A stretch of DNA of 43,944 bases from Exiguobacterium sp. GTDB lineage: Bacteria > Bacillota > Bacilli > Exiguobacteriales > Exiguobacteriaceae. The stretch is from positions 1-43,944 of the forward strand of contig NZ_JAFIFD010000001.1 of the NCBI RefSeq assembly GCF_020832205.1, given 5' to 3'. Shown here piece by piece: positions 40,494 through 43,723 of this stretch. Numbering within the stretch: position 1 is the stretch's first letter; every line of letters begins with the position of its first letter. Both the position numbers and the translations under genes were made by a program. Below the pieces are notes generated by a model, which saw only the letters and a program-made list of their open reading frames with translations, was not told the origin of the DNA and ran no database searches.

Positions 40494-41357
40494 TTATAAC
40501 GTCTCAATCAGCTGTTTCAACGCGTCTTTCAGCGGCGTCACTGGACGCCCGAGCAAGAGCTCGAAGTCGTTCGATTCGACTTCAAGCGAGCCGTTGCGGA
40601 TGCTCTCTTGAATCCCGACGACGAGCGGGATGACTTCTTCCGGCACACCGGCACCGCGCATGACGTTGGCGTAAGCGTCCGCACTCACTTCCTGGAGTTC
40701 GACTTCGCGGCCGAGCACTTCCCCGAGCGCTTTGACGAGTTCTGCTTGTGTGTGGAGCGGGCCGGACAGTTCGAAGACGTCTTGCTCAAAGTCGTCTGCC
40801 ATGAGAACGTTCGCCGCGGCTTCGGCGTAGTCTTGTTGCAACGCCCAACCGACTTTCCCATCACGGGCAGCCGTCACCCACGGGGCACCGGCAAGGACGC
40901 CTTGAATGCTGCCGAGTTCGTTCTCTAAGTACCAGTTGTTGCGCAAGAACGCGTGTGGGATGCCGGTACGCTCGATCGCCCCTTCCGTCTCGACGTGCGG
41001 CGGCGCCATGAGGTTTTGACTGTTCGTCGCATCGGCGAGACTCGTGTAGGCGATGAACTTGACCCCCGCCGCTTCCGCCGCTTCGACGACGCTCGCGTGT
41101 TGACGGATGCGCGTGTCGTTGTCCCCGTCCGCCGAGATGATGAGCAGACGCTCAACACCTTTGAACGCCGTTTCGAGCGTCTCTGGCTTGTCGAAGTCGC
41201 CGTGACGCACGTCGACGCCTTTCTCTTTCAACAGCGTCGCTTTCTCCGGGTTGCGGACGCTGACCGCCACTTCACTTGCCGGCACCGCTTCGAGTAAGGT
41301 GTTGACGATTTTCGAACCGAGTTTCCCCGTTGCACCTGTGATTAAGTATTTCATCAT
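40494..41357 (-). CDS. NmrA-like NAD(P)H-binding reductase (QOR2/YtfG-like)
   Basis: Atypical short-chain dehydrogenase. The N-terminal nucleotide loop is YLITGATGKLGSKIVNTLLE (residues 4-23), followed by VSVRNPEKATLLKEKGVDVRHGDFDKPETLETAFKGVERLLIIS and the FIAYTSLADA strand. LRNNWYLEN replaces the classical YxxxK. Members such as E. coli YtfG reduce quinones with NADPH. It has 287 residues. AAGGAGG precedes the ATG at 41357; a second ATG follows directly. It is divergent from an Rrf2 regulator and has two operator copies over its promoter, so it is probably induced by an electrophile or redox signal. Confidence 0.9.
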   Translation of the reverse strand: MMKYLITGATGKLGSKIVNTLLEAVPASEVAVSVRNPEKATLLKEKGVDVRHGDFDKPETLETAFKGVERLLIISADGDNDTRIRQHASVVEAAEAAGVKFIAYTSLADATNSQNLMAPPHVETEGAIERTGIPHAFLRNNWYLENELGSIQGVLAGAPWVTAARDGKVGWALQQDYAEAAANVLMADDFEQDVFELSGPLHTQAELVKALGEVLGREVELQEVSADAYANVMRGAGVPEEVIPLVVGIQESIRNGSLEVESNDFELLLGRPVTPLKDALKQLIETL

Positions 41358-41376
41358 TTTTTTCCTCCTTCAAACC

Positions 41377-41395
41377 TGTAATTTAATCAGTTACA
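41377..41395. promoter_or_regulatory. Rrf2 operator candidate 1
   Basis: TGTAATTTAATCAGTTACA has the form TGTAA(T/C)-N7-(G/C)TTACA, shared by three sites here. It lies at the transcript start of the reductase gene. Confidence 0.7.
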
Positions 41396-41414
41396 TGTAA
41401 TCATCATAGTTACA
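41396..41414. promoter_or_regulatory. Rrf2 operator candidate 2
   Basis: TGTAATCATCATAGTTACA directly abuts site 1 and covers the -10 of the reductase promoter. Confidence 0.72.
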
Positions 41415-41431
41415 GCATCTTCGTTTGTCAA
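41403..41431 (-). promoter_or_regulatory. Sigma-A promoter of the NmrA-like reductase
   Basis: On the minus strand, TTGACA (41426-41431, perfect) and TATGAT (41403-41408) are 17 bp apart. Confidence 0.78.
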
Positions 41432-41452
41432 TTGCTTGTTCCCTGTTATACT
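41425..41452 (+). promoter_or_regulatory. Sigma-A promoter of the rrf2 gene
   Basis: TTGTCA (41425-41430) and TATACT (41447-41452) are 16 bp apart, back to back with the reductase promoter. Confidence 0.65.
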
Positions 41453-41457
41453 GAAGA

Positions 41458-41476
41458 TGTAACCAATTCGCTTACA
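41458..41476. promoter_or_regulatory. Rrf2 operator candidate 3
   Basis: TGTAACCAATTCGCTTACA, the same 19-bp pattern, lies at the transcript start of rrf2 and implies autorepression. Confidence 0.65.
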
Positions 41477-41500
41477 CGACTGTTCAGAAAGGGGTGGCTT

Positions 41501-41932
41501 ATGTCCATCAGTAGCCGTTTCGCGGTCGGCATTCACATTTTGACGTTGATCGAGGTCAATCAGGACGGCGTCACCTCGTCTAACTTTTTGGCTGGTAGCG
41601 TCAACACGAATCCCGCCCTTATCCGAAAAATCATGGCGATGTTGAAGAAAGCCGATTTGATTGAAGTGACGCCCGGCGTTGCCGGTGCCAAGCTCGCCAA
41701 AAACTTGAACGAGATCTCGCTCTATGACGTCTATCGCGCCGTCAGCGTCGTCGAGGAGAACGAGCTGTTCAGCATCCATGATAATCCGAACCCGGCGTGT
41801 CCCGTCGGCCAACAGATCCAAGCAACAATCGAGCCAATTTTTATCCATGCCCAATCGGCGATGGAATCCGTTTTAAAGCAAGTGACCCTCGCCGATGTCG
41901 TGAACGACATGGCTAACAACTCGAGCACGTAA
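41501..41932 (+). CDS. Rrf2-family transcriptional regulator (YwnA-like)
   Basis: Winged-helix regulator. It starts SISSRFAVGIHILTLIEVNQDG, with the recognition region NPALIRKIMAMLKKADLIEVTPGVAGAKLAKNLNEISLYDVYRAVSVVEE (about residues 38-90). It lacks the three-cysteine Fe-S cluster motif of IscR or NsrR and has one cysteine, in NPACPVG near residue 106, which might act as a redox switch. It has 143 residues. The ATG at 41501 follows AAAGGGGTGG. In B. subtilis the related YwnA is also next to an NAD(P)-binding protein, YwnB, so the pairing seems conserved. Confidence 0.9.
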   Translation: MSISSRFAVGIHILTLIEVNQDGVTSSNFLAGSVNTNPALIRKIMAMLKKADLIEVTPGVAGAKLAKNLNEISLYDVYRAVSVVEENELFSIHDNPNPACPVGQQIQATIEPIFIHAQSAMESVLKQVTLADVVNDMANNSST

Positions 41933-41967
41933 AACAAGGGAAACCCGACGCGGGCTTCCCTTGTTTT
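41931..41967. terminator. Bidirectional intrinsic terminator
   Basis: AAAACAAGGGAA pairs with TTCCCTTGTTTT around an inner CCCG/CGGG stem. It lies between rrf2 and the convergent tyrS and overlaps the tyrS stop. Confidence 0.92.
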
Positions 41968-43216
41968 AGTCTTTCAGTTGAATGAATTTACGTTTGCCGA
42001 CCTGTAGAATCATACCCGCTTTGAGTAGGATTGGCGCATCGCTATCCGTCTGTTTGTCCCCGTTGATGCGGACGCCGCCACCGGCAATCATGCGCTTCGC
42101 TTCGCTCTTTGAAGCGAATAAATCGAATTTCATGACTGCCTCAAGTAACGTCACAGATTCCCCGTTTGGAATTTTTCGTTGTTCCATATCCTCTGGCAAT
42201 AATCGGAGCTGAAACACTCGTTTGAAACCTTGTTCGGCTTGATCTGCCGCTTCTTCACCATGGTATAGCTCGACGAACCGTTTAGCGAGTCGCATTTTCG
42301 CATCTCGTGGGTGTAAGTTCCCTGACGAGAGTGCGCGCAGCGTCGCTTCAATCGTTTCTTGCGGGAACCCGGTCGCCAACGTGAAAAACTTTGGCATGAG
42401 CTCATCAGGAAGCGACATCGTCTTCCCATACATGTCCGCAGGTGACTCATCGATCCCGATGTAGTTGTGTTTTGACTTCGACATCTTCTCGACCCCATCG
42501 AGTCCTTCTAAAAGCGGCATCAAGATTGCGACTTGTTTTTCTCGTCCGAACTTTTCTTGGAAATGTCGTCCCATCAAGATGTTGAAGTGCTGATCGGTTC
42601 CACCGATTTCAATATCACTCTCGAGATGAATCGAGTCATAGCCTTGTAACAGAGGGTAGAAGAACTCATGGAGGGAAATCGGTTTACCGAGGGCGAGCCG
42701 TTCCTCAAAATCATCCCGTTCGATCATACGAGCGACCGTGATTTTACCAGCTAGGCCGATGACATCCTCTAGGCTGAGTCCTTTCAACCATTTTGAATTA
42801 TAATGCAGGACGACACGGTCCATATCTATCAGTTTGCCGAATTGATCAAAATACGTTTGCGCATTTTGTTTGACTACTTCATCCGTCAACTGGACCCGCG
42901 CCGTTGACTTCCCAGTCGGGTCTCCAATCTTTCCAGTGAAGTCACCAATAATCAAGTGGATCTCATGACCGTTCTCTTGAAATTGGCGGATCTTGTTTAA
43001 CACGACAGTGTGTCCTAAGTGGATATCAGGCGCCGAAGGATCTAGGCCGAGCTTGACCTTGAGCGGACGCTTATCGATCATCGATTTCGCTACTTTCATC
43101 TTTAGCTCTTCGGTCGGAATGATGTCATCCACCCCTTGCGTGTACTCAGCCATCTGCCTCTCGACTTCCCGTAATTGCTCATCGGTCAGTGTCATCTCTT
43201 CAAACGTCGGTTTCAT
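41966..43216 (-). CDS. tyrS: Tyrosyl-tRNA synthetase, TyrZ type
   Basis: Class I aminoacyl-tRNA synthetase charging tRNA-Tyr. The HIGH motif is HLGH at 66-69 ([27 protein letters not shown]), and KMSKS is exact ([18 protein letters not shown]). A C-terminal S4 RNA-binding domain covers about the last 65 residues ([21 protein letters not shown]). The [15 protein letters not shown] sequence marks the TyrZ branch rather than the main TyrS branch. It has 416 residues. ATG at 43216 is twelve bases from AAAGGAG, while GTG at 43225 is only three bases from it; either may be used. It overlaps the end of the MarR gene, so both share a transcript. Confidence 0.95.
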
Positions 43217-43709
43217 TCGACTCACTCTCTCCTTTGTCGTTCATTTTGTTTAATAACCGAAGCAATGTTTTCTTCTCACTCGTGTCCAAATGGCGGACAA
43301 GTCGGCGTTCCTCCGCATGGAACCGTGGGTATAGTGTCGCTACGGTCTCTTCACCGGATTCGGTCAAAAATAGTCGTGTCATGCGGCGGTCTTTTTGATC
43401 GCTCTCACGTCCGCAATAGCCGTTCTTCTCAAGCGTCTTTGACACATTGCTGACCGTGGCCTTACTTATGCCGACTTTGCCCGCCAAATCACGCACTTCT
43501 AGCTTTCCGTGGACGAATAGTTCGTACAGAATCGCGAAAGCGGTCCAAGATAAACGATAATGAACGAGCACTTGATTCTCAAAGTGACTTCTCATCGTGT
43601 GGGCAAAATGATCAATCGATGTCAAAATCGCAATGGCATCCCGATCGAGTTCATCCACAAAAAGTTTGAATCGATCATCCAAAACTGGTTCTCGCTCGTC
43701 GTGTCTCAT
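43200..43709 (-). CDS. MarR-family regulator upstream of tyrS
   Basis: Winged-helix regulator of 169 residues. An N-terminal extension of about 35 residues precedes the HTH ([67 protein letters not shown], about 53-120), with the [10 protein letters not shown] wing typical of MarR. The ATG at 43709 follows AAGGAGG by six bases; the ATG at 43715 abuts that site. It is the first gene of a two-gene operon with tyrS, an arrangement I also recall for B. subtilis ywaE and tyrZ. An inverted repeat lies at its promoter. Confidence 0.9.
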
Positions 43710-43723
43710 TTCCATCCTCCTTA

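Follow-up and report, generated by a model that had tools for sequence, protein, structure and literature searches.

Single-cysteine Rrf2 regulators form a large group, the founding studied member of which is SifR of Streptococcus pneumoniae. In those parts of PMC9218516 that are drawn on here, SifR is reported to recognise the operator TGTAA-N9-TTACA and to leave the DNA when a quinone adds to its cysteine, and its targets include the quinone reductase YwnB. The same source characterises SSN cluster 6 by one conserved cysteine, located in the motif HxxPNPxC at the helix 5 N-cap (PMC9218516).

The window analysed here, by which we mean the whole stretch of 43,944 nucleotides from a contig of Exiguobacterium sp. 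(NZ_JAFIFD010000001.1), contains a divergent gene pair, an Rrf2 regulator and an NmrA-type reductase, with three operators in the intergenic region. Judged from its sequence, the regulator is a member of the known YwnA/SifR monothiol Rrf2 group (SSN cluster 6), a class that was missed in the original prediction. The locus is very probably a quinone- or electrophile-responsive switch of the YwnA/SifR kind. What is new is a subclade of YwnA-type regulators, spread over many genera of Bacilli, in which the operators of the reductase abut at 19 bp; a description of such an abutting pair was not found in the open-licence PMC literature.

Layout of the locus

All three operators match TGTAAY-N7-STTACA without a mismatch. 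Operators 1 and 2 abut, 19 bp apart, across the -10 box and the predicted start of the reductase, and the end of operator 3 is 24 bp from the rrf2 ATG. The features are as follows.

40494-41357, minus strand: NmrA-type NAD(P)H-dependent reductase (YtfG/QorB-like, triphenylmethane-reductase-like), 287 aa, from the ORF and homology
41377-41395, no strand assigned: operator 1, TGTAATTTAATCAGTTACA, exact match, running downstream from about the predicted reductase transcription start
41396-41414, no strand assigned: operator 2, TGTAATCATCATAGTTACA, exact match, the reductase -10 lying inside it (minus-strand operator positions 7-12)
41403-41408, minus strand: reductase -10, TATGAT, from the consensus scan
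41425-41430, plus strand: rrf2 -35, TTGTCA, from the consensus scan
41426-41431, minus strand: reductase -35, TTGACA, with a 17-bp spacer, from the consensus scan; overlaps the rrf2 -35
41447-41452, plus strand: rrf2 extended -10, TGtTATACT, from the consensus scan
41458-41476, no strand assigned: operator 3, TGTAACCAATTCGCTTACA, exact match, over the predicted rrf2 transcription start
41501-41932, plus strand: YwnA/SifR-type Rrf2 repressor, 143 aa, from the ORF, Pfam, PDB relatives and an AlphaFold model
41798-41800, plus strand: codon of Cys100, the sole cysteine, in HDNPNPACPVG, from the translation

The original prediction had described three matching 19-bp operators, two of them abutting over the -10 and start of the reductase and the third at the rrf2 start; all three proved exact, and the layout is borne out by the coordinates together with the promoter scan. 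The next-best matches in the window have two mismatches, if the same sites read on the opposite strand are set aside; no further exact copy of TGTAA-N9-TTACA was found in the window, and an Rfam scan of the window gave no match. Scanned for the motif, as had been suggested, the genome (2.78 Mb) holds five exact TGTAA-N9-TTACA sites, three of them at this locus, as against none for a reversed-pattern control. Composition predicts about two such sites per genome, or about 7e-5 per 100 bp, so that the occurrence of three within 100 bp is not a matter of chance.

The consensus scan, run over 41300-42000, found two promoters where shuffled sequences gave 0.6. Both are near consensus, as had been claimed: that of the reductase, TTGACA-17-TATGAT, agrees at 11 of 12 positions and that of rrf2, TTGTCA-16-TATACT with its extended -10, at 10 of 12. 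The divergent -35 boxes share the seven bases TTGTCAA (41425-41431), a detail absent from the earlier description, and because of this overlap RNA polymerase probably does not occupy the two promoters simultaneously.

The regulator matches Pfam PF02082 over residues 3-136 (E 1.3e-31, 109.9 bits against a cut-off of 30). It is identical to 1YLF at 70 of 135 aligned residues and to B. subtilis YwnA (1XD7) at 66 of 137 aligned columns (48-52%). Its translation confirms that it lacks Fe-S cysteines and has one cysteine, C100, whose surroundings, HDNPNPAC, fit HxxPNPxC. In an AlphaFold model built with 11 homologues (mean pLDDT 84), Cys100 lies immediately before helix 101-127 (helix 5), the loop that precedes it being less certain, and the cysteine is invariant across the 11 aligned homologues. 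Among the 104 proteins of the locus survey described below, the strict HxxPNPxC motif is found in 80 and a single cysteine in 61. Residue 33 is a serine, leaving no second HypR-type cysteine, and the protein scores 51.7 with the HypR model (cut-off 180). Two other Rrf2 proteins of the genome exceed the Pfam cut-off; they are nearest to CymR and NsrR and, as trimmed segments, score below the curated cut-offs (193 against 195 and 139 against 182, respectively).

The proposal that the single cysteine senses quinones or electrophiles through its thiol gains support from homology to SifR, which extends to the motif, the position of the cysteine, the operator and the kind of target. As SifR leaves the DNA upon addition of a quinone to the equivalent cysteine, the quinone-sensing reading holds by homology, and by analogy a quinone adduct on Cys100 would release the regulator from its operators. 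An Fe-S switch would be a different reading of the locus: the RsrR/NmrA system of Streptomyces venezuelae has the same kind of divergent gene pair and two near-adjacent sites, as presented in the portion of PMC5015018 used here. However, the present regulator has one cysteine only, it scores far below the cut-offs of the IscR model (22 bits against 207.55) and the RirA model (32 against 193), and the operator is unlike the 11-3-11 repeat; we consider an Fe-S switch highly improbable, the least credible of the readings weighed here.

The reductase matches the NmrA family (PF05368, E 2e-22). Its homology to E. coli YtfG (2ZCU, E 8e-53), of the NmrA-like family, is full-length, and triphenylmethane reductase (2VRC, E 3e-53) is equally close in the PDB. 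QorB is another name of E. coli YtfG. The substrate of the present reductase would presumably be a quinone, by analogy with relatives for which the activity is known. Further along the window a gene that by eye appears to encode a MarR-like regulator (43200-43715, minus strand) lies directly upstream of, and overlaps, a tyrS-like gene (41966-43225).

When one mismatch was allowed the genome scan gave 14 sites, compared with 10 for the reversed control, which is no clear excess, and a regulon beyond the locus was rejected on these grounds. One of the other exact sites (C41:65137, at L005:1501-1519 in G000) precedes an RHH (DUF6290) gene; it was rejected as a target since its counterpart persists in G014, a genome without the regulator, where a ParE-type toxin gene adjoins it (a toxin-antitoxin pair). 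The other (C11:21751) adjoins an ORF that by eye resembles a membrane transporter subunit, with no support as a target. The term self-contained, which had been applied to the switch, thus fits, no other genomic site being supported as a target.

Joint presence and absence within the genus

The genus provides a natural comparison, the reductase occurring in some genomes together with the repressor and its sites and in others without them. The reductase is present in all 19 genomes and the regulator in 11; G013, where no more than two weak, partial hits to other Rrf2 proteins were obtained, is counted among those lacking it. Every regulator-bearing genome has all three operators (one site in G006 carrying one mismatch), with operator 1 abutting operator 2 in 11 of 11 loci. 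TTGTCAA is likewise found upstream of the reductase in these 11 genomes and in none of the eight others. In the eight regulator-free genomes the 300 bp ahead of the reductase contain no site with up to one mismatch, G004 having one with two mismatches. The association between regulator and operators gives a Fisher p of 1.3e-5 if relatedness is ignored. On the reductase tree, which does not distinguish gain of the regulator from loss, its state changes five times on the best tree, four of these changes being forced by well-supported branches; in a tree-aware sign test all four independent pairs agree (p 0.125, four pairs being too few to reach 0.05). The reductases of G009 and G014 are nearly identical, and the regulator and sites are present in G009 only, a genome that is flagged as 8% contaminated.

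These patterns bear on whether the repeats might belong to a different regulator, with rrf2 merely adjacent. The palindrome at the RHH gene, retained in G014 where there is no regulator, would be in keeping with this, but at the locus itself regulator and operators either occur jointly or are both missing in each of the 19 genomes, and an operator lies near the rrf2 start in all 30 homologue loci (29 exact and L025 with one mismatch). We therefore regard a different regulator as highly improbable.

A SigB-like element, GTTNNN-N14-GGGAAN, was observed 5' of the reductase in regulator-free genomes, matching at 12 of 12 positions in G001 and G004 and at 10 in G013 and G014; in these four it stands at -58 to -60. 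G010 has only a weak GTGTGA-N14-GGGAAG, at about -57, which inspection by eye also shows in G003 and G012; none was seen near -57 in G005. In the 11 regulated species a version matching at 10-11 of 12 positions is located at -107 to -110, overlapping operator 3 and the rrf2 -10; its minus-strand position in the window is about 41440-41466. SigB itself is encoded in the genome. With a background in which matches of at least 10 to the consensus occur in 19% per 200 nt, a SigB-like promoter for the reductase is only suggestive.

The abutting operator pair across the Bacilli

The survey comprised 104 YwnA-type loci from 47 genera (30 + 15 + 59), drawn from the matches listed and picked for genus spread, with some start codons approximate. 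Partner genes were identified in short flanks with phmmer, a single example standing for each kind, a scope outside which most downstream partners of non-divergent loci fall. A divergent reductase is found beside rrf2 in 38 of the 104 loci (13 genera), 24 with YwnB and 14 with QorB. In 31 of these 38, representing 12 of the 13 genera, a pair of operators with no more than one mismatch apiece is spaced at exactly 19 bp; the seven without the tandem pair are L118 and six g2 loci that belong to a second regulator group. When offsets of 12-40 bp from operator 2 were scanned, the mean number of mismatches per 10, averaged by genus, dipped at 19 only (0.67, against 5.8-8.5 elsewhere), with one locus also having a match with up to two mismatches at 25. 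The distance from operator 2 to operator 3, where a third exists, takes seven values between 62 and 89 bp. Scored on two hexamers, that at operator positions 7-12 and another lying 17 bp further upstream, the promoter agrees with TTGACA/TATAAT at 9 or more of 12 positions in 36 of the 38 loci, the exceptions being L112 and L018, in which the site scored is not operator 2 of its tandem pair.

If up to one mismatch is allowed, 54 of the 66 non-divergent loci have an operator near the rrf2 start (a single one in 51, a tandem pair in one), and none was found there in the other 12. The sole tandem locus of this class, L153, has an FMN azoreductase-like gene as its divergent neighbour; its product falls below the curated cut-off of the azoreductase model and above that of Flavodoxin_2. 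In the regulator tree, which was made by a quick method from 145 columns and has many weak forks, every tandem locus falls within a single subclade (support 89, not starred), whose 34 rows comprise 32 tandem loci together with L117 and L118, which are not tandem. On the best tree the tandem pair requires three changes, and the partner type of the divergent loci four, one of them forced by well-supported branches. Residues specific to the regulators with tandem operators include Gly10, Ala61 and Pro112, a list that cannot separate function from descent.

The exact abutting pair was also used as a query on DNA alone. Against genome_contigs (one genome per species, 84,980 species) it returned 111 stretches in a search run without a shuffled control, and 80 of these were examined. 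In 75 of the 80 a YwnB (46), QorB (28, L256 weakly) or azoreductase-like (1) gene is near the pair, and in 60 of the 75 the regulator is also nearby. L236 has the pair with a regulator in a locus cut at the edge, and four loci (L207, L222, L224 and L252) have neither reductase nor regulator near the pair; L224 and L252, which come from bins labelled proteobacterial, are probably chance pairs. The abutting double operator can serve as a DNA signature that locates quinone reductase genes across the Bacilli without protein evidence. In Priestia taiwanensis (L210:1949-2005) three operators of 19 bp each stand end to end. In L199 and L220 genes that by eye resemble DsbB- and DsbA-type thiol oxidoreductases lie beside tandem operators, in L199 between the reductase and rrf2.

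A gapped pair pattern applied to 398 Bacilli genomes found 49 pairs in 48 genomes, compared with 12 genomes for the reversed control over the whole gap range. Twenty-seven pairs have a gap of 0 (8 genera), four a gap of 5-10 (g69), one a gap of 10 (g28), 16 a gap of 16-29 (g29) and one a gap of 20 (g44). A universal 19-bp spacing was rejected given the pairs at other gaps in g69, g28, g29 and g44, and the lock at 19 bp therefore belongs to one clade. The four g69 genomes have a spacing of 24-29 bp, ahead of a glyoxalase/dioxygenase-superfamily gene (labelled catE-like) in the three loci read, and in g29 the spacing is 35-48 bp, ahead of FMN-reductase-like or YwnB-like genes (three loci read). 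Three loci (L114, L116 and L125) have rrf2 followed by the catE-like gene, the promoter of which carries the two operators at 24-29 bp, and in L114 YwnB comes after it. L323, L324 and L325 have their pairs, 35-48 bp apart, before the FMN-reductase-like and YwnB-like genes; the g29 spacing is 42 bp in 11 of 16 pairs, and in several pairs of this type TTGACA falls within one operator, with the stretch between the operators containing a TATAAT-like box.

What the pair does is open to two readings. It may be a phase-locked double operator, of two or once three palindromes, one of them round the -10, on which touching dimers load together to give a sharp threshold switch for quinones that is portable among YwnB, QorB and azoreductase-like partners; we put this forward tentatively. 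With a helical repeat of 10.5 bp, a 19-bp step falls about 69 degrees short of two complete turns. We propose that dimers lie side by side on the abutting pair; contact or cooperation between them is put forward with less confidence than the rest. The pair may instead have no joint function and descend from one old duplication, each half being kept as a separate roadblock. This is a serious contender that we would still place somewhat below an even chance: the pair has few origins, with three changes on the best regulator tree, spacings in other lineages are 24-48 bp, and 51 of 66 non-divergent loci have a single site, whereas the 19-bp spacing shows no drift in 31 loci of 12 genera, within which operator 3 varies in spacing.

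The proposed switch and its relation to known systems

In the quinone switch that we favour, the reduced Rrf2 dimer would bind TGTAA-N9-TTACA. Neighbouring dimers on operators 1 and 2 would cover the -10, start point and first transcribed bases of the reductase, and a third dimer on operator 3 would cover the rrf2 start point and lead to autorepression. Once Cys100, where helix 5 begins, has formed an adduct with a quinone or a related electrophile, the dimers would dissociate from the DNA, so that the NAD(P)H-dependent QorB-like reductase could be produced and remove the quinone. In this scheme DNA binding, the direction of regulation, the quinone as signal and the reductase substrate are all inferred. 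Points against it are that the QorB-like enzyme is not the YwnB controlled by SifR, that 12 of the 66 non-divergent loci showed no operator within one mismatch at the rrf2 start, and that the relaxed genome scan gave no clear excess of sites.

The same repressor and operators could serve a signal other than quinones, some other thiol-reactive species (hypochlorite, aldehydes, disulfide stress or triphenylmethane dyes) on which the reductase would act. The hypochlorite-sensing relative HypR is reported, in the text of PMC9218516 used here, with the same TGTAA-N9-TTACA core, and triphenylmethane reductase and YtfG are equally close relatives of the reductase. On the other hand, HypR reportedly uses two cysteines (PMC9218516) where this regulator has one, the partners within the clade are YwnB, QorB and azoreductase-like proteins, and the paired operators of other lineages precede dioxygenase-superfamily, FMN reductase and YwnB genes, though few loci were read. 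The partner genes in the clade and in other lineages therefore point to quinones and catechols, and a different signal seems unlikely. Should dimers on the abutting pair touch and load together, a one-cysteine sensor, which has no disulfide switch, would gain a threshold-like response to quinones. The locus and its relatives provide a simple way of testing whether operator arrays sharpen the response of monothiol sensors.

Several described systems share parts of this arrangement. E. coli YtfG (2ZCU) and triphenylmethane reductase (2VRC) are full-length homologues of the reductase (E about 1e-53), and no link of YtfG to an Rrf2 regulator was found in open-licence PMC papers. MerA, the target of HypR in Staphylococcus aureus, is a disulfide reductase. 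HypR is likewise an Rrf2 thiol sensor reported with the same operator core, but has two redox cysteines, C33 and C99, according to the sections of PMC9218516 consulted. The RsrR/Sven6562 (NmrA) pair of S. venezuelae is also a divergent rrf2-nmrA arrangement, with two sites one base pair apart and repression of both genes proposed; it differs in that RsrR senses redox state with a [2Fe-2S] cluster and has an 11-3-11 operator, and in that its NmrA partner is described, in the part of PMC5015018 used, as a regulator.

The closest parallels are YwnA/YwnB and SifR. B. subtilis YwnA (1XD7) is a close homologue of the regulator and stands side by side with an NAD(P)-binding reductase, but ywnAB is presented as an operon in the relevant part of PMC9218516, whereas here the genes are divergent, a QorB-like protein replaces YwnB and the operator is doubled. 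With SifR the locus has in common the Rrf2 fold, the single cysteine in HxxPNPxC, the operator TGTAA-N9-TTACA, a quinone reductase as target and action as a repressor, here by homology. The SifR regulon, as set out in the portion of PMC9218516 available, comprises catE, ywnB, yhdA and fre, with sifR not adjoining ywnB in S. pneumoniae, whereas the present regulator has one local QorB/NmrA target with three operators, two of them abutting.
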